Assembly (NCBI RefSeq): GCF_012843435.1
Contig: NZ_JABAFC010000003.1
Location: 1-64,000 of the forward strand
Length of the DNA: 64,000 bases
Direction: 5' to 3'
DNA from: Psychrobacillus sp. BL-248-WT-3
GTDB taxonomy: Bacteria > Bacillota > Bacilli > Bacillales_A > Planococcaceae
In this document: piece after piece, positions 8,032-16,829 of the stretch
Position numbering within the stretch: the stretch's first letter is position 1
How the letters are laid out: every line of letters begins with the position of its first letter
Program-made: the position numbers and the translations under genes
Notes under the pieces: model-generated
Database searches by the model: none
What the model was told of the DNA's origin: nothing
What the model saw: only the letters and a program-made list of their open reading frames with translations

Positions 8032-9255
8032 GTGGCAGAAATTATAGTTCCGGAATTGGCAGAGTCTATTACAGAAGGCACGATTGCCCAGTGGTTAAAA
8101 AAACCAGGTGATACCATTGAAAAAGGCGAGTTTATAGTTGAGCTCGAAACAGATAAAGTAAACGTTGAAGTTATATCCGAGGAAGCGGGAGTAGTGAGTG
8201 AGCTGTTATTTGGTGAAGGAGATACAGTTCAGGTAGGAGAGGTTATTGCCATCGTCGGTGCAGGATCTGGAACTTCTGCTGCCCAACCTCAGGCAGAGGA
8301 AGTAAAGGTTGAGGAAAAGGCTCCAGATATACCAAAGACAGACAATGCACCAATTACAAAGGTTGAAACTACCTCAGACACAAGTAGACCTATTGCTAGC
8401 CCTGCCGCGCGTAAGATGGCAAGGGAAAAAGGTATTGATTTAAATGAAGTGTCTCCTGTTGATCCAATGGGGCGTGTTCGTGTTCAAGATGTATCAGCCC
8501 ATGGCTCAAAACAAATAGCAGAGCCAGCTAAAATTGTCTCTGCTCCAACAGATGATGGTCGTACGACTCGCGAAAAAATGTCTCGTAGACGACAAACAAT
8601 CGCATCACGTTTATTAGAGGTTAAACAAAGCACTGCAATGTTAACGACGTTTAATGAGATAGATATGACGAATGTGATGGCTTTGCGTTCTCGTAAAAAA
8701 GATAAATTTTTCGAAGACAACCAGGTACGTCTAGGTTTCATGTCGTTCTTCACTAAGGCAGTCGTAGCTGCTTTGAAAAAATATCCTTATGTTAATTCAC
8801 AGCTGGATGGAGAATACATTGTTAAAAATAACTTCTTTGATATTGGTATTGCTGTATCAACAGAAGGGGGTCTAGTAGTGCCAATCGTTCGTGATGCGGA
8901 TCGCAAAAACTTTGCAGAAATTGAAGGGGATATTGGAGAACTGGCTAAAAAGGCACGTGATAACAAGCTAGCACTTTCGGATATGACGGGTGGTTCCTTC
9001 ACAATTACAAACGGGGGCGTATTTGGTTCCTTAATGTCTACCCCGATATTAAATGGAACACAAGTTGGTATCCTTGGAATGCATACCATTCAAAAACGAC
9101 CGATAGCGGTTGGAAGTGAAATTCAAATAAGACCTATGATGTATGTAGCTCTTTCTTATGATCACCGTGTAATAGACGGAAAAGATTCAGTAGGCTTTCT
9201 GAAAATGGTAAAAGAATTGCTCGAAAATCCAGAGGATCTTATGCTGGAATCTTAA
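8032..9255 (+). CDS. odhB: 2-oxoglutarate dehydrogenase E2 (dihydrolipoyl succinyltransferase)
   Basis: Core E2 of the 2-oxoglutarate dehydrogenase complex, making succinyl-CoA. Domains in order: lipoyl domain at residues 1-76 with the lipoylated Lys42 in ETDKVNVE; a hinge rich in Ala, Glu and Pro; a peripheral subunit-binding domain at about 120-158 (SPAARKMAREKGIDL); and a catalytic domain at about 180-407 ending with SYDHRVIDG, where His378 and Asp382 are catalytic. The start is GTG at 8032 after AAAAGGAGGAAG. Length 407 is normal. A terminator follows, so odhAB is a two-gene operon. Confidence 0.95.
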   Translation: MAEIIVPELAESITEGTIAQWLKKPGDTIEKGEFIVELETDKVNVEVISEEAGVVSELLFGEGDTVQVGEVIAIVGAGSGTSAAQPQAEEVKVEEKAPDIPKTDNAPITKVETTSDTSRPIASPAARKMAREKGIDLNEVSPVDPMGRVRVQDVSAHGSKQIAEPAKIVSAPTDDGRTTREKMSRRRQTIASRLLEVKQSTAMLTTFNEIDMTNVMALRSRKKDKFFEDNQVRLGFMSFFTKAVVAALKKYPYVNSQLDGEYIVKNNFFDIGIAVSTEGGLVVPIVRDADRKNFAEIEGDIGELAKKARDNKLALSDMTGGSFTITNGGVFGSLMSTPILNGTQVGILGMHTIQKRPIAVGSEIQIRPMMYVALSYDHRVIDGKDSVGFLKMVKELLENPEDLMLES

Positions 9256-9300
9256 GAGAGTTCAGGCGGAGTATTAATATTTACATTTTAAGTTTGTTAG

Positions 9301-9335
9301 AGGCTTACTGGATTATTCCAGTAAGCCTTTTTTTA
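9301..9335 (+). terminator. Terminator of odhAB
   Basis: A 12-base-pair perfect stem, AGGCTTACTGGA (9301-9312) with its complement (9317-9328), a 4-base loop and seven Ts. Confidence 0.9.
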
Positions 9336-9428
9336 TTCTTAATTATTTTCTGGGAAATACTATTAGCGGGAACTCTTTTATGTAAGTCGAATTACTAGTT
9401 ATTACATTAGAATGGGAGTGGCGTTATT

Positions 9429-10178
9429 ATGGTAAAAAATATGACTTCTGAAGATTCTATTAAGAGGTGGGACAAGTTTGCTGAAAAATATGCAGCCAAT
9501 CATCTGGAGCATGGAGATCCACATAAAGAGGTATATTTAAATCCAACCTTGTTTAGTCTTATGGGAAATTTAAACAACAAAAAAGTACTAGATGCTGGTT
9601 GTGGAGAAGGGTATTTAAGTAGACTGATGGAGAAGGCAGGAGCAGCTGTAACAGCTATTGACTATTCATCAAAGATGATTGAAATAGCAAAAAGTAGAAC
9701 AACATCAGAACTCAATATAGAATTTAAACAATCTAACTGTGAAAATTTACATTTTATAATGGAAGGAACTTATGACGTAGTTGTTTCTAATATGGTGATC
9801 CAGGATTTAGAAGGTTATCAGCAAGCATTTAATGAGATTTATCGTGTTCTTCGAGAGGGTGGGATTTTTGTCTTTTCTATTTTACATCCTTGTTTTCAAA
9901 CTCCAGAAAGTGGATGGGAGAAAGGGGATGACGGTAAAAAATTATATTGGAAAGTAGATAACTATTTTTATGAGGGAGCCTATGAGCAAAGAGGGATGGA
10001 CCAGGTAATCTTCTATCACCGCACATTAACAAGCTATGTAAAAGCCATCTGTGAAGCTGGATTTTTAATAGAAGAGATAGTAGAGCCTACCCCATCTGAG
10101 GAAATGTTGAAGAAGTACCCATCATTTCGTGAGGATTTTAGAAGTCCCGACTTCATTGTTTTTCGACTGAAAAAGTGA
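9429..10178 (+). CDS. Class I SAM-dependent methyltransferase
   Basis: A 249-residue soluble protein with the Rossmann-fold methyltransferase pattern: motif I VLDAGCGEGYL at residues 53-63, acidic Asp78 closing the second strand (AIDYSSKMIEIA), motif II/III YDVVVSNMVIQDL, and the Methyltransf_11-type block YRVLREGGIFVFSILHPCF. The substrate cannot be read from the sequence; small-molecule or quinone-type methyltransferases share this architecture. Start ATG after GGGAGTGG. It stands alone between two terminators (9301 and 10349). Confidence 0.8.
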   Translation: MVKNMTSEDSIKRWDKFAEKYAANHLEHGDPHKEVYLNPTLFSLMGNLNNKKVLDAGCGEGYLSRLMEKAGAAVTAIDYSSKMIEIAKSRTTSELNIEFKQSNCENLHFIMEGTYDVVVSNMVIQDLEGYQQAFNEIYRVLREGGIFVFSILHPCFQTPESGWEKGDDGKKLYWKVDNYFYEGAYEQRGMDQVIFYHRTLTSYVKAICEAGFLIEEIVEPTPSEEMLKKYPSFREDFRSPDFIVFRLKK

Positions 10179-10348
10179 TGTTAATTAAGTAGAATAGATT
10201 TTTCAAAGCTAAGCTAGAACAGTTTAACGAGTTGTGTAGTGGGGAGACTGTCGCTGGACATAGTGATAACTAATAATCCTTCTAAATTATTTTTTTCTTA
10301 TATTAAATTTATCTAAACTAATGATTAAACCTAATTTATATACCTTAA

Positions 10349-10384
10349 AAAAGGGCAATCTCTCATGAGATTGCCCTTTTTTCG
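10349..10384 (+). terminator. Terminator after the methyltransferase gene
   Basis: A 14-base-pair perfect stem (10349-10362 with 10367-10380), a TCAT loop and a run of six Ts. It lies 170 bases past the stop; the gap from 10179 to here shows no other gene. Confidence 0.85.
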
Positions 10385-10443
10385 TGGTAATCACCTATAA
10401 AAACTAGATACACAATTTTCTTACGGTTTAATAATTTTACTCA

Positions 10444-10471
10444 AACCTTTCTTTTGGCTCTACATATGATA
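10444..10471 (+). promoter_or_regulatory. Possible sigma-K promoter of the GH68 pair
   Basis: CATATGATA at 10463-10471 fits the sigma-K -10 consensus CATANNNTA. AACC at 10444-10447 fits the loose -35 (mACm), with a 15-base spacer, one or two bases shorter than usual. The predicted start is about 30 bases before the ATG of the first GH68 gene. The match is short and could be chance. Confidence 0.35.
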
Positions 10472-10506
10472 GCAATGTACGAAAATCTATTAAAGGTGTG
10501 TAAGTT

Positions 10507-12063
10507 ATGACAAAAGAAAATGATGAAAAACATTTTAATAGACTTGGGGAACATGAACATCGCTCAAATAAAAATAGGTATAAACTAACTTCGCAACAAT
10601 TTCCTGTTAGAAGCTCGAGAACAGAATCCGCAAATATAATGCCGAGTGCTTCTGTTAATCGGAACTCTCCTTCTGGAGCCACTGGAAATAACAATGTTCG
10701 TTATCGAACTTTTAATGGCAAACAAATTAGTCAGTTTTGTAACTATAACCCTAGAAGAGATTTCGGACGTTGCCTTGAATATAACCGCGACGCGATTCCA
10801 TCTGTTTGGACAAGGAGCCAAGTAGAACAAATTCGAATTAATTCTACTAATGTTGCACCGCTAATTGAAGCCCCATTCCCTCGTATATCAGCCGATTTAT
10901 GGATATGGGATATGTGGCCGTTAATAGAAAAAGACGGTTCAATCGCAGTGTTACCTGGTGGTTGGCGAGTGTTATTTGCTTTATCTGTCCCTCGTAGTGT
11001 TCTACCAGGAAAAAGACATGATGTTGCAAGAATCAGTTACTTTTATTCGAGAAACGGACTTGACTGGATCCAGGGAGGTTACGTATTCGAAGAAGGTACA
11101 GCTATAGGGTCTAGACAGTGGGCAGGCTCAGCAATGCTTGATGAAGATGGTCGTATTTATTACTTCTATACAGCTACTGGTAGAAGAGGAGAAGCTCAAA
11201 TCACTTACGAGCAGCGAATTGCATTATCGAGCAGTGATTATATTTCTAACTTAGATGGTGTGCAATTAGTAAACTTTGCCCCTCATCAAGTAATCCTAGA
11301 ACCAGACGGTATTCTCTACCAGACAGAAGAACAATCTAGTGGAGGAATAATTTATGCCTTCCGTGATCCCTTCTTCTTCAAAGACCCTGCGACAGGGTGT
11401 GAATATTTATTGTTTGAAGGAAATATAGCCGGTACGTCAGCAGATGTAGACTGTGGACCTGGAGTTCCAGCAGACGCTGCAGAATATACAGGCAATATAG
11501 GAATAGCATTACTTCGTAATAACAGCTTTTCCAGTTGGGAACTACTCCCTGCACTTTTAGAAGCAGGATGTACGAACCAACAAACAGAACGTCCTCACAT
11601 TGTAGTAAGTGACGGACTATACTATCTGTTTACAGATACGCATGCTTCAACATTTGCTCCGGGGTTGGTTGGTCCAGACGGGTTGTATGGATTTGTAGCA
11701 GGTTCCCTACGTGGGAATTATATGCCGCTAAATGGAAGTGGACTTGTAGTGTCTAATCCTCCTTCCGAACCTTTCCAGGCATATTCCTGGCTCGTTTTAC
11801 CCGATTTTTCAGTCTTGAGCTTTATAGATAATTTTGATTTGCAAGGTATTCCAATTGAAGAAGTTGGTTTTTTACCAGAACAATTTCAATTTGAACATTT
11901 TGGTGGGACATTAGCTCAAACATTACAGCTAGGTGTAAGTGGCAGAAATACGGAGATTATAGATGTTTATGAGTATGGACTAATGATGGTATCAGAAACA
12001 GAAAGTCCTAAATGCAGAGCATGTAATGATGATTATTCTTCTGAGAATCATCACAGACGTTAA
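10507..12063 (+). CDS. Family 68 glycoside hydrolase (levansucrase/fructosidase type), first copy
   Basis: A 518-residue GH68 enzyme. Family members split sucrose and transfer fructose to water or to a growing levan or inulin chain. All three catalytic positions are present: nucleophile Asp135 in LWIWDMWPL, transition-state Asp287 in AFRDPFF, and acid/base Glu361 in QQTERPHIV. WTRSQVEQIR at 101-110 matches the family's opening helix. By eye it resembles the Zymomonas-type branch (TERPH, GPDGLYGFV, PLNGSGLV) more than B. subtilis SacB. There is no signal peptide, although most Gram-positive GH68 enzymes are secreted. Residues 1-95 are polar, with Cys78 and Cys89 shared by the second copy, and the end is short and His/Cys-containing. 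A possible sigma-K promoter precedes it. RBS AAAGGTG. Confidence 0.85.
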   Translation: MTKENDEKHFNRLGEHEHRSNKNRYKLTSQQFPVRSSRTESANIMPSASVNRNSPSGATGNNNVRYRTFNGKQISQFCNYNPRRDFGRCLEYNRDAIPSVWTRSQVEQIRINSTNVAPLIEAPFPRISADLWIWDMWPLIEKDGSIAVLPGGWRVLFALSVPRSVLPGKRHDVARISYFYSRNGLDWIQGGYVFEEGTAIGSRQWAGSAMLDEDGRIYYFYTATGRRGEAQITYEQRIALSSSDYISNLDGVQLVNFAPHQVILEPDGILYQTEEQSSGGIIYAFRDPFFFKDPATGCEYLLFEGNIAGTSADVDCGPGVPADAAEYTGNIGIALLRNNSFSSWELLPALLEAGCTNQQTERPHIVVSDGLYYLFTDTHASTFAPGLVGPDGLYGFVAGSLRGNYMPLNGSGLVVSNPPSEPFQAYSWLVLPDFSVLSFIDNFDLQGIPIEEVGFLPEQFQFEHFGGTLAQTLQLGVSGRNTEIIDVYEYGLMMVSETESPKCRACNDDYSSENHHRR

Positions 12064-12185
12064 GTAAGAAGAATTATAAATAACATTTGATTATATGAGT
12101 GGTAAATTTTTTAAATTAGATTAAATTAGATTTTCGTACAAACCATTCATTTGATTGAATTGAAAATAAGAAAAGGTGAAAATAT

Positions 12186-14108
12186 ATGTCAAAAAAAAGA
12201 GATATGGGTCAGAGAGTTCCAATCGCTGGGTCAGGTAATGAAATGCTATCTCCAATAACTGGAGGTTCATCAAATAGAAATTTCCCAAGTGCTGCAACTA
12301 ATTCTGGAACTACTCAGTACAGATCATTTAACAACAATGATATTAAAAGATTTTGTGATTACAACCCACAAAGAGATTTTAAAAGATGCTTAAACCAAAG
12401 CATTGACGCAGTTCCTTCGGCTTGGACGAGGGCGCAAGCAGAGCAAATTAGAATTACTGCTTCTAATAGCGCTCCTGTTATACAAGAACCATTCCCACGA
12501 ATTTCAGATGATTTGTGGATATGGGATATGTGGCCACTTCAAGAAAAAGATGGTTCTATAGCTGTACTTCCGGGTGGATGGAGAGTTCTGTTTGCCTTAT
12601 CAGCACCTAGAAGCGTATTACCAGATAACAGACATGACGTAGCGAGAATCGCATACTTCTATTCTAGAGATGGCTTAAATTGGATACAAGGTGGACTAGT
12701 TTTTGAAGAGGGTACTGCATTTGGATCAAGACAATGGGCAGGATCTGCAATCATCGATGGAGGAAGAATCTATTACTTCTATACAGCCTCCGGTAGACGT
12801 GGTGAAGCTCAAGTAACTTTTGAACAACGCATTGCATTAACAAGCAGTAACTTTAGATCCAATTTAGATGGTGTCGAGCTAGTTAACTTCGCGCCACATG
12901 AAATAATTTTAGAGCCAGACGGAGTGCTTTATCAAACGCAAGAACAATCTGAATCGGGTGGAAGTAGTATTATTTACGCATTCCGTGATCCTTGGTTCTT
13001 TAAAGATCCAGCAACAGGCTGCGAGTATTTATTGTTTGAAGGTAATATCGCGGGAAACAACTTAGACATTGATTGTGGACCTGGAGTGCCAGAGGAAGCA
13101 AGGCTTTACACTGGAAATATTGGAATTGCCCTACTACGAAACAATGAGTACACTTCTTGGCAATTACTACCGGCTCTCTTAGAGGCGGGCTGTACAAATC
13201 AGCAGACGGAACGTCCACACCTTATTGTAAGGAACGGTTTATACTATTTATTTACAGATAGTCATAGATTTACGTTTGCTCCTGGTTTAACTAATGGACC
13301 TGGACCAGATGGTTTATATGGTTTTGTGGCAGGGTCATTAAGAGGAAATTATCAACCATTAAACTCTGGAGGCTTAGTTATAGCAAACCCAGTTTCTGAA
13401 CCGAACCAGGCTTATTCTTGGTTAGTGTTACCGGATTTCTCTGTACTAAGCTTCATCGATACTTTCGATTTACAGGGAATAACGACAGATGAGCTTACTA
13501 ATTTACCTGAATCTTTCCGAAGAGCACATTTTGGTGGAACTCTTGCGCCTACTCTTCAATTAAGAGTTTCAGGTAGAACAACAGAAATTGTAGCTGAATA
13601 CGAGTACGGCTTGGTTATGGTATCTGAAACGGAAAGTCCGAAGTGTTGCCGAAATGGTGCCGAAAACGGTAATGGTGGAAACGAACACGATCATGATTGC
13701 CACTGTAAAGATCATGGTGATTATAATTGTAACCATCATCGTAATAGAGGCAAAGACAATTACGATTGTCAATGTAACCATCAACACGGGAAAGACAGAG
13801 ATAATGAGGATTGCAACCATGATAGAAGTGATGAGTGTGATTATGATAATTACGATTCTAATGGGCAATGTTATAGATGTGGAAAAAAACATAGTAACCC
13901 GTCCTATCCAAGAAGTCATAAGTCTTGGAAGGAAGATAACCATTGGAAGGATTCCAAGCATAAACACAAGGATGACTGCGACTCAGTAGATGATTGTGCA
14001 TGCAAGGACAAGAATCATCAGCATAATGATTATGATTGCATCAGCTTCCCTAAGCCAGATAGAAAAAGATTTTACAATGATCCCAACTGTGGATGTAGAA
14101 ACAGGTAA
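12186..14108 (+). CDS. Family 68 glycoside hydrolase with Cys/His/Asp-rich tail, second copy
   Basis: A 640-residue paralogue of the preceding gene, similar from about residue 35 to 487. The catalytic set is intact: Asp114 (LWIWDMWPL), Asp268 (AFRDPWF), Glu342 (QTERPHLIV). It also lacks a signal peptide. Residues about 487-640 form a low-complexity tail dense in His, Cys, Asp, Asn and Lys, with many HDHD, CHCKDH and CNHH words. Its composition recalls spore-coat or metal-binding segments. The genes differ at many synonymous positions, so the duplication is old. The 122-base gap has no terminator, so the two are probably co-transcribed; RBS AAAAGGTG. A spore-surface location is my inference. 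A levan-making, levan-cutting or sucrose-splitting role cannot be told apart. Confidence 0.82.
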   Translation: MSKKRDMGQRVPIAGSGNEMLSPITGGSSNRNFPSAATNSGTTQYRSFNNNDIKRFCDYNPQRDFKRCLNQSIDAVPSAWTRAQAEQIRITASNSAPVIQEPFPRISDDLWIWDMWPLQEKDGSIAVLPGGWRVLFALSAPRSVLPDNRHDVARIAYFYSRDGLNWIQGGLVFEEGTAFGSRQWAGSAIIDGGRIYYFYTASGRRGEAQVTFEQRIALTSSNFRSNLDGVELVNFAPHEIILEPDGVLYQTQEQSESGGSSIIYAFRDPWFFKDPATGCEYLLFEGNIAGNNLDIDCGPGVPEEARLYTGNIGIALLRNNEYTSWQLLPALLEAGCTNQQTERPHLIVRNGLYYLFTDSHRFTFAPGLTNGPGPDGLYGFVAGSLRGNYQPLNSGGLVIANPVSEPNQAYSWLVLPDFSVLSFIDTFDLQGITTDELTNLPESFRRAHFGGTLAPTLQLRVSGRTTEIVAEYEYGLVMVSETESPKCCRNGAENGNGGNEHDHDCHCKDHGDYNCNHHRNRGKDNYDCQCNHQHGKDRDNEDCNHDRSDECDYDNYDSNGQCYRCGKKHSNPSYPRSHKSWKEDNHWKDSKHKHKDDCDSVDDCACKDKNHQHNDYDCISFPKPDRKRFYNDPNCGCRNR

Positions 14109-14137
14109 AAAAATTAAATATAAAATTTAATCTTCAG

Positions 14138-14167
14138 TCCGGCTCCTTTATGGAGTCGGATTTTTTT
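14138..14167 (+). terminator. Terminator of the GH68 pair
   Basis: A 9-base-pair stem with one G-T pair (14138-14146 with 14152-14160), a 5-base loop and seven Ts, about 30 bases past the stop. The stretch from 14168 to the amt promoter shows no credible gene. Confidence 0.8.
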
Positions 14168-14438
14168 ATATGAGACATCTTTCTAAAACTAATAGATGGA
14201 GAGAAGGTATGAATTCTTGCATCATCTGCCCGATAGAAAATGGCCAAAGCGAACATAAGAGAATGGGATTGCTAGAAGACATCAAGCTGGTACAAGTTAC
14301 TCTAAATACATGTAAGCTATTCATAATTCCAAAAAGTACAAAGTATGAAGAAATGTAGCTAACAAGCCTGTTATTGCCGATAAACACAATTATGTAATGA
14401 AAGTTAACATAAAATAAAATAAATTCAGAAAAATGTAT

Positions 14439-14466
14439 TGACATTCAATTTGTATTAAGTAAAATA
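14439..14466 (+). promoter_or_regulatory. Sigma-A promoter of the ammonium transporter gene
   Basis: A perfect TTGACA -35 at 14439-14444, followed by about 16 bases and a TAAAAT -10. Two GlnR/TnrA boxes lie just downstream of the -10. Confidence 0.6.
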
Positions 14467-14483
14467 AGGATATAAATAAATGA

Positions 14484-14522
14484 TGTTATATTTCCTAACA
14501 TTTAATGTTAAGGGATGTAACA
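14484..14522 (+). promoter_or_regulatory. Two perfect GlnR/TnrA boxes
   Basis: TGTTATATTTCCTAACA (14484-14500) and TGTTAAGGGATGTAACA (14506-14522) both match TGTNA-N7-TNACA exactly and are centred 22 bases apart, two helical turns. They lie between the predicted -10 and the ribosome binding site, a position expected for repression by GlnR when nitrogen is plentiful. Confidence 0.8.
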
Positions 14523-14544
14523 TAAAGAAATAGGAGGGGTCAAA

Positions 14545-15813
14545 ATGGAAGATGTAATGTATTTGATGAACAGCTTATGGACCATGGTTGCTGCAATTTT
14601 AGTTATTTTTATGATTGGTGGATTTATACTTTTAGAGGCTGGTTCAACAAGAATGAAGAATGCTGGGCACGTTGCCGGTAAAACCATTTTTACTTTTGGG
14701 TTGGCATCATTAGTATTTTGGGCAGTAGGATATGGTTTTATATTTGGAGGGAATGCTAACTTCTTCGTAGGAATGACAGACTTCTTCTATGCTGGTGGAG
14801 GAGAGGATGGAGCAAGTGTTTCTCCTACCGTGTTTTTTGTTTTCCAATTAGCATTTGCTGGTATTGCAATAACGATTGCTCTTGGCGGGTTTGCCGAACG
14901 TGCTAAACTGTCTGCTTACGTAATTTTCACTATTCTTTTCGGCATAATCGTTTATCCAGTAATCGCTCATTGGGTGTGGGGAGGCGGTTGGTTAGCTGAA
15001 CATGGAAAACAAGATTTTGCAGGGTCTACAGTAGTTCATTTAACTGGTGCAGCAGCAGCTCTAGCGGCAACGATGATACTAAAACCTAGAATAGGGAAAT
15101 TTAACAAAGATGGTTCTTCTAATAACTTAGCGGGTCATAACCAAGTTTATACTGCATTAGGTGTACTGATTTTGTGGGTTGGTTGGTTTGGTTTTAACGC
15201 GGGTAGTACGGTTTCCGTTGATGCAGCATTCTTTGGGTATGTAGCATTAAATACTGCTTTAGCAGCAGGAGCAGGAGCGGTTGCGGCAACATTTATCTCC
15301 TGGGTAGCTTTAGGGAAATCAGATATTCCTACTATTTTAAATGGAGCATTAGCAGGTTTAGTTGCTATTACGGCATCGTGTGCATTTGTAGACGTATGGG
15401 CGTCAGTTGTGATTGGTTTAATAGCTGGGGTACTTGTATTTTATAGTGCACGATTCTTTGAAAAGAGAAAAATTGATGATCCAATTTATGCACTTTCTGT
15501 TCATGGAACTGCTGGTATTTGGGGTACTTTATCTACCGGCTTCTTTGCTACAACCGAGCTTGCGACGACAGGGAAACCTGGTTTGTTTTATGGTGGTGGC
15601 GTAGATCAGCTGTTAGTTCAATTAATGGGAGTTGCAGCTTGCGGAGCATTCGCTTTCGCCGTATCATATGCTATTCTGTTTATAATGAAGAAAGTCATGG
15701 GTGGTATCCGAGTGACAGAAGAAGAGGAAATAATGGGTCTGGATATGAGTGAGCACGGGAATTATGGCTATCCAGAACAAATGGTTTTAGAGGAAGCGAA
15801 AGGTACTAACTAA
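14545..15813 (+). CDS. amtB: Ammonium transporter Amt/Rh family
   Basis: A 422-residue channel with 11 predicted transmembrane helices, conducting ammonium/ammonia across the membrane. The twin pore histidines are His165 (STVVHLTGA) and His320 (ALSVHGTAGIWG), near the E. coli AmtB numbers 168 and 318. The family block GGFAERAKL is at 114-122. As usual for Gram-positive members there is no cleaved signal. The ATG follows AGGAGGGG. Two GlnR/TnrA boxes upstream indicate control by nitrogen status. No glnK (PII) gene follows, unlike B. subtilis nrgAB; a terminator and a DUF294 nucleotidyltransferase gene come next. Confidence 0.95.
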   Translation: MEDVMYLMNSLWTMVAAILVIFMIGGFILLEAGSTRMKNAGHVAGKTIFTFGLASLVFWAVGYGFIFGGNANFFVGMTDFFYAGGGEDGASVSPTVFFVFQLAFAGIAITIALGGFAERAKLSAYVIFTILFGIIVYPVIAHWVWGGGWLAEHGKQDFAGSTVVHLTGAAAALAATMILKPRIGKFNKDGSSNNLAGHNQVYTALGVLILWVGWFGFNAGSTVSVDAAFFGYVALNTALAAGAGAVAATFISWVALGKSDIPTILNGALAGLVAITASCAFVDVWASVVIGLIAGVLVFYSARFFEKRKIDDPIYALSVHGTAGIWGTLSTGFFATTELATTGKPGLFYGGGVDQLLVQLMGVAACGAFAFAVSYAILFIMKKVMGGIRVTEEEEIMGLDMSEHGNYGYPEQMVLEEAKGTN

Positions 15814-15831
15814 AACAAATAAATAAACGTC

Positions 15832-15860
15832 AAAAAGCCTCTGCTTCAGAGGCTTTTTGT
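15832..15860 (+). terminator. Terminator after the ammonium transporter gene
   Basis: A 12-base-pair perfect stem, AAAAAGCCTCTG (15832-15843) with its complement (15847-15858), and a 3-base loop. The T-run is part of the right arm. Confidence 0.85.
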
Positions 15861-15878
15861 ATAAAAGGGAGTGTGGTC

Positions 15879-16829
15879 ATGGAAACCTATGAATTCTTAA
15901 GAGAATGGAAGGACCAAAATATCATGTCCTATTTGAAAGATACCATCTCTCTCAATGATTTTCATGATCAAGTCATGCAACATGTGATGCATATTGCTAA
16001 AAGTAAACTAAAAGAGGAACCGCCCTGTAACTTCACATGGTTTATAACGGGCAGTGGAGGCAGAAGAGAGCAAGGCTTAATCAGTGATCAGGACCATGGA
16101 ATTATATATGAAAAGTCGGACAAAGAATATGAGGAATATTTTAAAGTGCTGGGAGAGGAGCTAGCATTCGGGTTGCATGCTGTAGGGTATCCATATTGTC
16201 AAGGGAACGTTATGAGTTCTAACCCATTATGGTGCAAGTCTGCGGGGCACTGGAAAAGTCAGCTTGAGGAATGGATGAGAGAAGAAAGCTGGGAGGCTAT
16301 TAGACATCTTCAGATTTTTTTTGATGCTCGTACTTTGTGTGGAGATCAATGCTATATTAATGAATTAAAACTTTTTATCTATCAATTTCAGCTAGGTCAT
16401 TCTTCTTTATTAAGACGGTTTTCTGCCAATATTGAACATGTCAAAAATGTTATAGGACCAGTGGGGCAGATTTTAGTGGAGCAGCATGGTAAATATCAGG
16501 GATGTGTCAACTTGAAATATGCCGCCTTTTTGCCGTATGTAAATGCAGTGCGTCTATTATCCATAAAGGAAGGCATCTATGAGACTTCTACGTTAAGTAG
16601 GATTGTTCAATTAAAGCATTCAAGTAAATACGATAAAATGCTACAAAACTGTGAGAAAAATTTCTTGGATTTATTAAAGTATCGGATTTCTTTAATTCAA
16701 ATAGAGAATTATACGGACACTCATTACTTAAGGATTCATAATTTGTCTAAGGAAGAGCGCAAGGAGATTAAGCGAATACTGAAGGATGGAAAAAGGCTTC
16801 ATGAAGAAGTAATTGCTTTAACTAGTTAA
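15879..16829 (+). CDS. DUF294 putative nucleotidyltransferase (GlnD-like)
   Basis: A 316-residue protein. Residues about 50-80 hold the nucleotidyltransferase signature GSGGRREQGLISDQDHGI, with Gly58-Ser59 and the metal-binding pair Asp70/Asp72. This is the pattern of the GlnD/DUF294 branch of the polymerase-beta superfamily. The C-terminal half (about 160-316) is helical, as in DUF294_C. There are no CBS or cyclic-nucleotide domains, which many relatives carry in front. I chose the ATG at 15879 because AGGGAG is seven bases before it; a GTG six bases upstream is too close to that site. It follows amtB and precedes a DnaQ-type exonuclease gene. The substrate is unknown; uridylylation of a nitrogen regulator is speculation. 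Confidence 0.75.
   Translation: METYEFLREWKDQNIMSYLKDTISLNDFHDQVMQHVMHIAKSKLKEEPPCNFTWFITGSGGRREQGLISDQDHGIIYEKSDKEYEEYFKVLGEELAFGLHAVGYPYCQGNVMSSNPLWCKSAGHWKSQLEEWMREESWEAIRHLQIFFDARTLCGDQCYINELKLFIYQFQLGHSSLLRRFSANIEHVKNVIGPVGQILVEQHGKYQGCVNLKYAAFLPYVNAVRLLSIKEGIYETSTLSRIVQLKHSSKYDKMLQNCEKNFLDLLKYRISLIQIENYTDTHYLRIHNLSKEERKEIKRILKDGKRLHEEVIALTS

Follow-up and report, generated by a model that had tools for sequence, protein, structure and literature searches.

Tandem GH68 genes without signal peptides in Psychrobacillus: candidate fructosyltransferases of the spore surface

Levansucrases and inulosucrases of glycoside hydrolase family 68 (GH68) are, to our knowledge, exported enzymes of growing cells. 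The CotA laccase and the oxalate decarboxylase OxdD of Bacillus subtilis are mother-cell coat enzymes without a signal peptide, OxdD being the coat paralogue of a non-coat enzyme. Haloarchaeal inulosucrases, according to the excerpted text of PMC8066391, group with GH68 proteins of halophilic bacilli. Here we describe two tandem genes, GH68a (10507..12063) and GH68b (12186..14108), on the forward strand of a window of 64,000 nucleotides (nt) from Psychrobacillus sp. BL-248-WT-3 (positions 1 to 64,000 of contig NZ_JABAFC010000003.1, assembly GCF_012843435.1). Judged from sequence, it is probable that their products are fructosyltransferases which the mother cell makes and incorporates into the spore coat or crust, where they would act on external sucrose. 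Among the literature matches listed (titles and starts of abstracts), none describes a GH68 enzyme of spores. A preliminary description of this DNA had raised placement on the spore as an unusual option, which now gains independent, if indirect, support from σK-type promoters, cysteine-rich protein ends and the presence of σK in the host genomes.

The two proteins (518 and 640 aa) are 72% identical, are the only GH68 matches in their own genome, and match Pfam family PF02435 at 292.7 bits (GH68a; E 6.1e-87, profile positions 2-421 of 424) and 295.8 bits (GH68b; E 7.1e-88, positions 5-421), with a cut-off of 27. The catalytic triad, which the preliminary description had read as complete, is indeed present in both (D135/D287/E361 in GH68a, D114/D268/E342 in GH68b), within WDMW, FRDP and TERPH motifs that are identical in the two proteins and, for GH68a, align with the same motifs of levansucrase 7bj4. 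Judged by their homology to solved structures, the predicted proteins should adopt the five-bladed β-propeller fold of GH68; an AlphaFold2 model from a five-row alignment had a mean pLDDT of 37.3, too low for the model to be used. Relative to the conspecific copies (G172), dN/dS is 0.047 and 0.087 for the pair, so both genes are under purifying selection; these values and the kept catalytic motifs rule out pseudogene status.

We judged signal peptides by Kyte-Doolittle hydropathy, as the highest 11-residue mean before the catalytic core, rather than by SignalP. This value is 0.29 for GH68a and 0.55 for GH68b, and 50 of the 53 GH68 proteins outside the clade described below reach at least 1.55 (exceptions: L017, L037, and L005). 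Since in-frame stops lie 6 nt (TAA, GH68a) and 9 nt (TGA, GH68b) 5' of the ATG, neither frame can be extended to take in a signal peptide; a hidden upstream start is thereby ruled out, and the lack of a signal peptide reported earlier stands. Neither protein thus carries the N-terminal signal peptide of a SacB-type secreted levansucrase. Genome searches yielded 12 such signal-less GH68 genes, conspecific copies left out of the count, from the window species, Rummeliibacillus, Sporolactobacillus and six further genomes. A hydrophobic N-terminus is found in none of the 12 proteins, which form one clade with support 100/99 in a careful maximum-likelihood tree of 58 rows that leaves out Zymomonas and the GH68 of halophilic bacilli from PMC8066391.

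Members of this clade are rich in cysteine, with 7-28 Cys per protein versus 0-3 in 49 other GH68 proteins (a count that leaves out L017, L018, L037, and L005). Each of them has three core Cys and two or more ahead of the core; in GH68a, which has 7 Cys in all, the polar N-terminal region (residues 1-97, 10507..10797, forward strand) holds Cys 78 and 89 ahead of the WTR motif. The clade tails differ in sequence, are polar throughout and mostly Cys- or His-rich, those of both a-type genes, G808, and G823 not being Cys-rich. In GH68b, with 22 Cys, the tail comprises residues 487-640 (13644..14105, forward strand), about 150 aa rich in Cys, His, Asp, and Asn that the preliminary description had passed over, and might perhaps serve to cross-link the protein or to bind metal in the coat. 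An open reading frame (ORF) of 111 aa in another frame (13654-13989) overlaps this repetitive tail and is most likely a by-product.

A further line of evidence comes from the region upstream of GH68a, where a match to a σK-type promoter, AAC-N16-CATATGATA, lies at 10444..10471 on the forward strand and ends 35 nt 5' of the ATG. The excerpted sources give the B. subtilis σK consensus as KCACM / GCATANNNTA (PMC3416734) and the gap as 14-16 (PMC517825). Our search motif, AC-N16-18-CATANNNTA within 200 nt of the start, was built on the B. subtilis consensus, and controls were given 60 nt more. It occurs in five of the first 10 clade genes, as against 0/23 signal-peptide GH68 genes (Fisher p = 1e-3) and 3/212 other genes of the same loci (p = 3e-6), and one of these three is an Ena endospore-appendage gene (PF13157), a fitting positive. 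When the five positive regions were shuffled (2000 shuffles), 0.75-2.65% matched. The promoter prediction had been fixed before G823 and G857 were found; both carry the motif, which brings the total to 7/12, or to 7/10 when the downstream gene of the window pair and that of the Rummeliibacillus pair are not counted.

The hosts encode the corresponding sigma factor. A SigK gene (NF004471, above cut-off) is present in all 10 clade-bearing genomes searched and, among 14 control genomes, in B. subtilis only; in the window genome NF004471 scores above its cut-off and TIGR02846 below its own. In S. kofuensis, G657, G729, and G808, a clade member occurs in the same genome as other GH68 proteins with hydrophobic N-termini, as would be expected if the functions of the two kinds were separate. 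The surroundings of the gene in S. kofuensis include UDP-glucose dehydrogenase and epimerase genes directly 5' of GH68, with galU-like and glycosyltransferase genes further upstream, and the same sugar-nucleotide gene types lie within about 14 kb in G823 (UDP-glucose dehydrogenase and the adjacent galU-like gene identified by eye). Going by gene type rather than by comparison with the B. subtilis proteins, these are the types of the ytdA-ytcABC spore-surface cluster, as given in excerpts of PMC2860764 and PMC7439481. Because the tree joins S. kofuensis and G823 as sister rows, this neighbourhood counts as one lineage.

Surface-polysaccharide gene types near the gene in these two genomes would also suit a structural role, in which the proteins are coat components with a GH68 fold that only bind or scaffold, for instance by holding crust polysaccharide; the promoter, cysteine and clade evidence fits such a role as well. 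A scaffold would, however, be free to lose its catalytic motifs, whereas WD, RDP, and ERPH are kept in 12/12 clade members and the window pair is under purifying selection, and we regard a purely structural function as unlikely. An intracellular sucrose or fructan route had likewise been considered in the preliminary description; on this reading the enzymes would remain in the cytoplasm of growing cells and split imported sucrose or store fructan. An enzyme working there needs no signal peptide, and none was found. The window genome, however, has no GH32 gene, the only match being GH68b itself below cut-off, and its single phosphotransferase system (PTS) EIIC is of the N-acetylglucosamine type, non-PTS sucrose uptake lying outside the search; because of these two findings a cytoplasmic sucrose route is disfavoured. 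The high Cys content and the σK-type promoters fit it poorly too, so that we rate it as distinctly improbable. The earlier statement that no sucrose transporter or sac regulator is found among the adjacent ORFs was borne out.

Several observations weigh against an assignment of the pair to the spore surface. The neighbours of the pair in the window, odhAB, a methyltransferase gene and amtB, have no spore link, and no Pfam or NCBIfam coat family matches GH68a or GH68b. Cys-rich tails occur beyond spores, and sugar-nucleotide clusters serve ordinary capsules as well. Within 600 nt, no strict promoter motif was found for the first Rummeliibacillus gene, S. kofuensis or copy 1 of G688, and five of the 12 clade genes are without a match; one-mismatch sites, present in 38/193 controls, are uninformative. 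The window promoter itself has AAC in place of the CAC preferred in B. subtilis, and its spacing is the shortest that the motif allows. In the G823 and G857 regions, 3/29 other ORFs also match, a rate above 3/212 (an HSP20 gene with the site within the ORF, a glycosyltransferase and an epimerase gene). For copy 2 of G688 and for G657, the start was moved to a codon further 3' whose distance from a ribosome-binding site is more favourable, a choice made while the regions were being viewed, and copy 2 of G688 gives a strict match only after this shift of 48 nt, which the extra 60 nt granted to the controls covers. Finally, G657, G729, G857, and G808 share one locus, so the seven positives are not independent and correspond to about four motif lineages (window, G688, G823, and the G657 group).

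The missing signal peptide has to be read with similar care. Excerpts of PMC8066391 report for a haloarchaeal enzyme no signal peptide by SignalP but one by PRED-TAT. The haloarchaeal protein L017 in our set is likewise without a hydrophobic N-terminus, which makes this feature a weak sign when taken alone. As some Gram-negative levansucrases are, moreover, exported without a signal peptide, and as the two predictors disagree on the haloarchaeal enzyme, its absence is no proof in itself. L017 and the Gram-negative cases, together with a catalytic core close to that of secreted Bacilli GH68, would speak for ordinary extracellular enzymes that leave the cell by a non-classical route or by mother-cell lysis, the latter freeing any late mother-cell protein. 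In that case it would be difficult to see why the other GH68 proteins of S. kofuensis, G657, G729, and G808 keep hydrophobic N-termini, and the Cys-rich ends would be without evident use in a freely released enzyme; we consider this explanation very improbable. With no export signal, Cys-rich ends and, in many members, a late sporulation promoter, the proteins are probably fixed on the spore surface.

As to the origin of the clade, its sister in the 58-row tree consists of four haloarchaeal GH68 rows (support 99/93), and signal-peptide Bacilli GH68 lie around the clade and the haloarchaeal rows. Nine SacB-like rows form a separate clade (100/100) whose branch, at 1.51 changes per column, is longer than any other internal one, and the window pair falls outside it. 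In a quick tree of 70 rows, which includes two conspecific rows and leaves out G823 and G857, the earlier set of 12 groups at SH-aLRT 99; long-branch Pseudomonas, Sphingobium, and Nonomuraea rows fall near the clade there, which calls for caution over the sister relation to the haloarchaeal rows. GH68b is 45.7-47.6% identical to haloarchaeal and 37-39% to proteobacterial GH68. The preliminary description had likened the core to the Zymomonas-type branch rather than to SacB; the distance from SacB was upheld, and the Zymomonas-type label was not, the clade being nearer to haloarchaeal than to proteobacterial GH68 in trees in which no Zymomonas row was placed. The clade would thus be a Bacilli branch that is added next to haloarchaeal GH68. 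An HXFT motif is found in 10/12 members including GH68b, and HAST or HRST in both a-type genes; the a/b duplication is older than the split of the window genus and Rummeliibacillus.

The distribution of the genes is patchy. Among 261 genomes of the order of the window species, matches at E 1e-10 are confined to the window genome, the conspecific G172 and G174, which we took to be the same assembly as Rummeliibacillus sp. POC4 (L009). Other species of the genus gave no match at this threshold in 17 genomes, G007 of the same genus yielding a weak, partial one (E 7e-8). A scan of named genomes with two short peptide patterns found only Rummeliibacillus sp. POC4 and Sporolactobacillus kofuensis NRIC 0334, and the order of the latter, sampled by overlapping draws of 199 and then 397 genomes, contributed G688 (two copies), G657, G729, G808, G823, and G857. 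A draw of 398 genomes from the class contained no clade member besides the window genome. It did contain five genomes (L049-L053) with three tandem signal-peptide GH68 genes; by eye, these trios adjoin a PTS permease and an antiterminator-like gene, and the third gene of L053 is split between two ORFs. L070:169-2745 (G627) and L076:799-4047 (G808) encode single proteins, of 858 and 1082 aa respectively, each of which has a hydrophobic N-terminus and contains two GH68 domains.

In the nearest congener, G001, amtB follows directly after odhB with a gap of about 0.73 kb and without GH68 genes. The window segment that carries the methyltransferase gene (9429-10178) and the GH68 pair, 9256..14403, has no similarity to this gap except for one 23-nt match. 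This suggests a gain in the window lineage, with a loss in G001 as the other possibility. Taken together, the gene-free site and the patchy distribution make horizontal transfer plausible, as the preliminary description had proposed, with the closest relatives residing in σK-encoding Bacilli and not in Gram-negatives. The plasmid collection returned 75 matching records, each below 60% identity and the best five haloarchaeal; one scan of viral contigs with two 7-residue peptide patterns revealed no relative that would point to a phage origin.

We envisage that GH68a and GH68b would be co-transcribed as a single unit by σK RNA polymerase in the mother cell, late in sporulation. Since it is the mother cell that assembles the coat around the forespore, proteins made there would need no signal peptide, and the Cys/His-rich ends, with the conserved Cys in and before the core, may tether or cross-link them within the coat or crust. 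In this position the intact active site would work on outside sucrose, either by splitting it or by building fructan on the spore surface; splitting would provide glucose and fructose beside the dormant spore, near the germinant receptors. Release of these sugars and formation of a fructan layer are both possible outcomes. Co-transcription, time of expression, location on the spore, activity, product and benefit are all inferred in this scheme. In a wider and more tentative reading, which we put somewhat short of even as one joint claim, Bacilli spores of several lineages wear an active fructansucrase in coat or crust as a sucrose sensor or glue, and the trait arose once by recruitment of a secreted Bacilli enzyme and spread patchily. 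If this holds, a non-metabolising spore that meets plant sucrose would coat itself with fructan and/or free glucose and fructose at its germinant receptors. The route from secreted to coat enzyme would then have involved loss of the signal, gain of Cys-rich ends and acquisition of a late mother-cell promoter. Dormant spores would be chemically active on plant sugar, with a bearing on germination, adhesion and spore display.

Some further features of the loci deserve mention. Between the methyltransferase gene and the GH68 unit, a terminator-like 16-bp perfect inverted repeat with a terminal T run lies at 10347..10382; it stems from the inverted-repeat search and is absent from the output of the terminator scan. 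That scan placed an intrinsic-terminator-like hairpin 3' of GH68b (14136..14162, forward strand). The window genome has two odhB copies (window 8032-9255 and G000:C11:7726-8961; 85% identical); at E 1e-150, a single match is seen in 16 of the 17 genomes from other species of the genus, and two in G001. By eye, G688 (L084:8703-18854) and the window (10507-16829) both have a GH68 pair near an amtB-like and then a similar nucleotidyltransferase-like gene, in an orientation that differs, which may reflect shared descent or coincidence. In G808 (L087:10548-18410), a Pel-type-like polysaccharide run, with PelF- and PelG-like genes identified by eye, is located between the GH68 and Ena genes. A Cys-rich ORF of 119 aa beside GH68 in G823 was considered as a CotZ-type coat protein and dropped, there being no Pfam match even at E 10 and no NCBIfam match at 0.001; it was not used here.

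Of the known systems, haloarchaeal GH68 is among the closest. The best solved-structure match of both proteins is 7bj4 (416.6 bits for GH68a, 403.3 bits for GH68b), which we take to be of haloarchaeal source, and the sister rows are plasmid genes of Natronorubrum, Halostagnicola, Haloterrigena, and Haladaptatus. The HX(H/F)T motif given for these enzymes in excerpts of PMC8066391 recurs as HRFT in GH68b, whereas GH68a has HAST. The haloarchaeal proteins differ in being short (443-451 aa) and without long tails, and two of the four haloarchaeal loci, unlike the other two, have GH32 or sugar-transport genes nearby. Signal-peptide Bacilli GH68, which form tandem loci of two or three genes (e.g., L049-L053), lie on the same side of the GH68 tree and are likely to represent the ancestral form; they differ from the window pair in their hydrophobic N-termini, their 0-3 Cys and the lack of a σK-type promoter (0/23). 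SacB-type levansucrases have the GH68 family and its catalytic triad in common with the pair, but the scores against PDB entries that are presumably of SacB type amount to only about 80-91 bits, and the SacB-like rows have hydrophobic N-termini. CotA and OxdD belong to enzyme families other than GH68, yet they provide the likeness in principle, namely a soluble-enzyme fold put into the coat, and OxdD exemplifies the same kind of recruitment that we propose for GH68a and GH68b.

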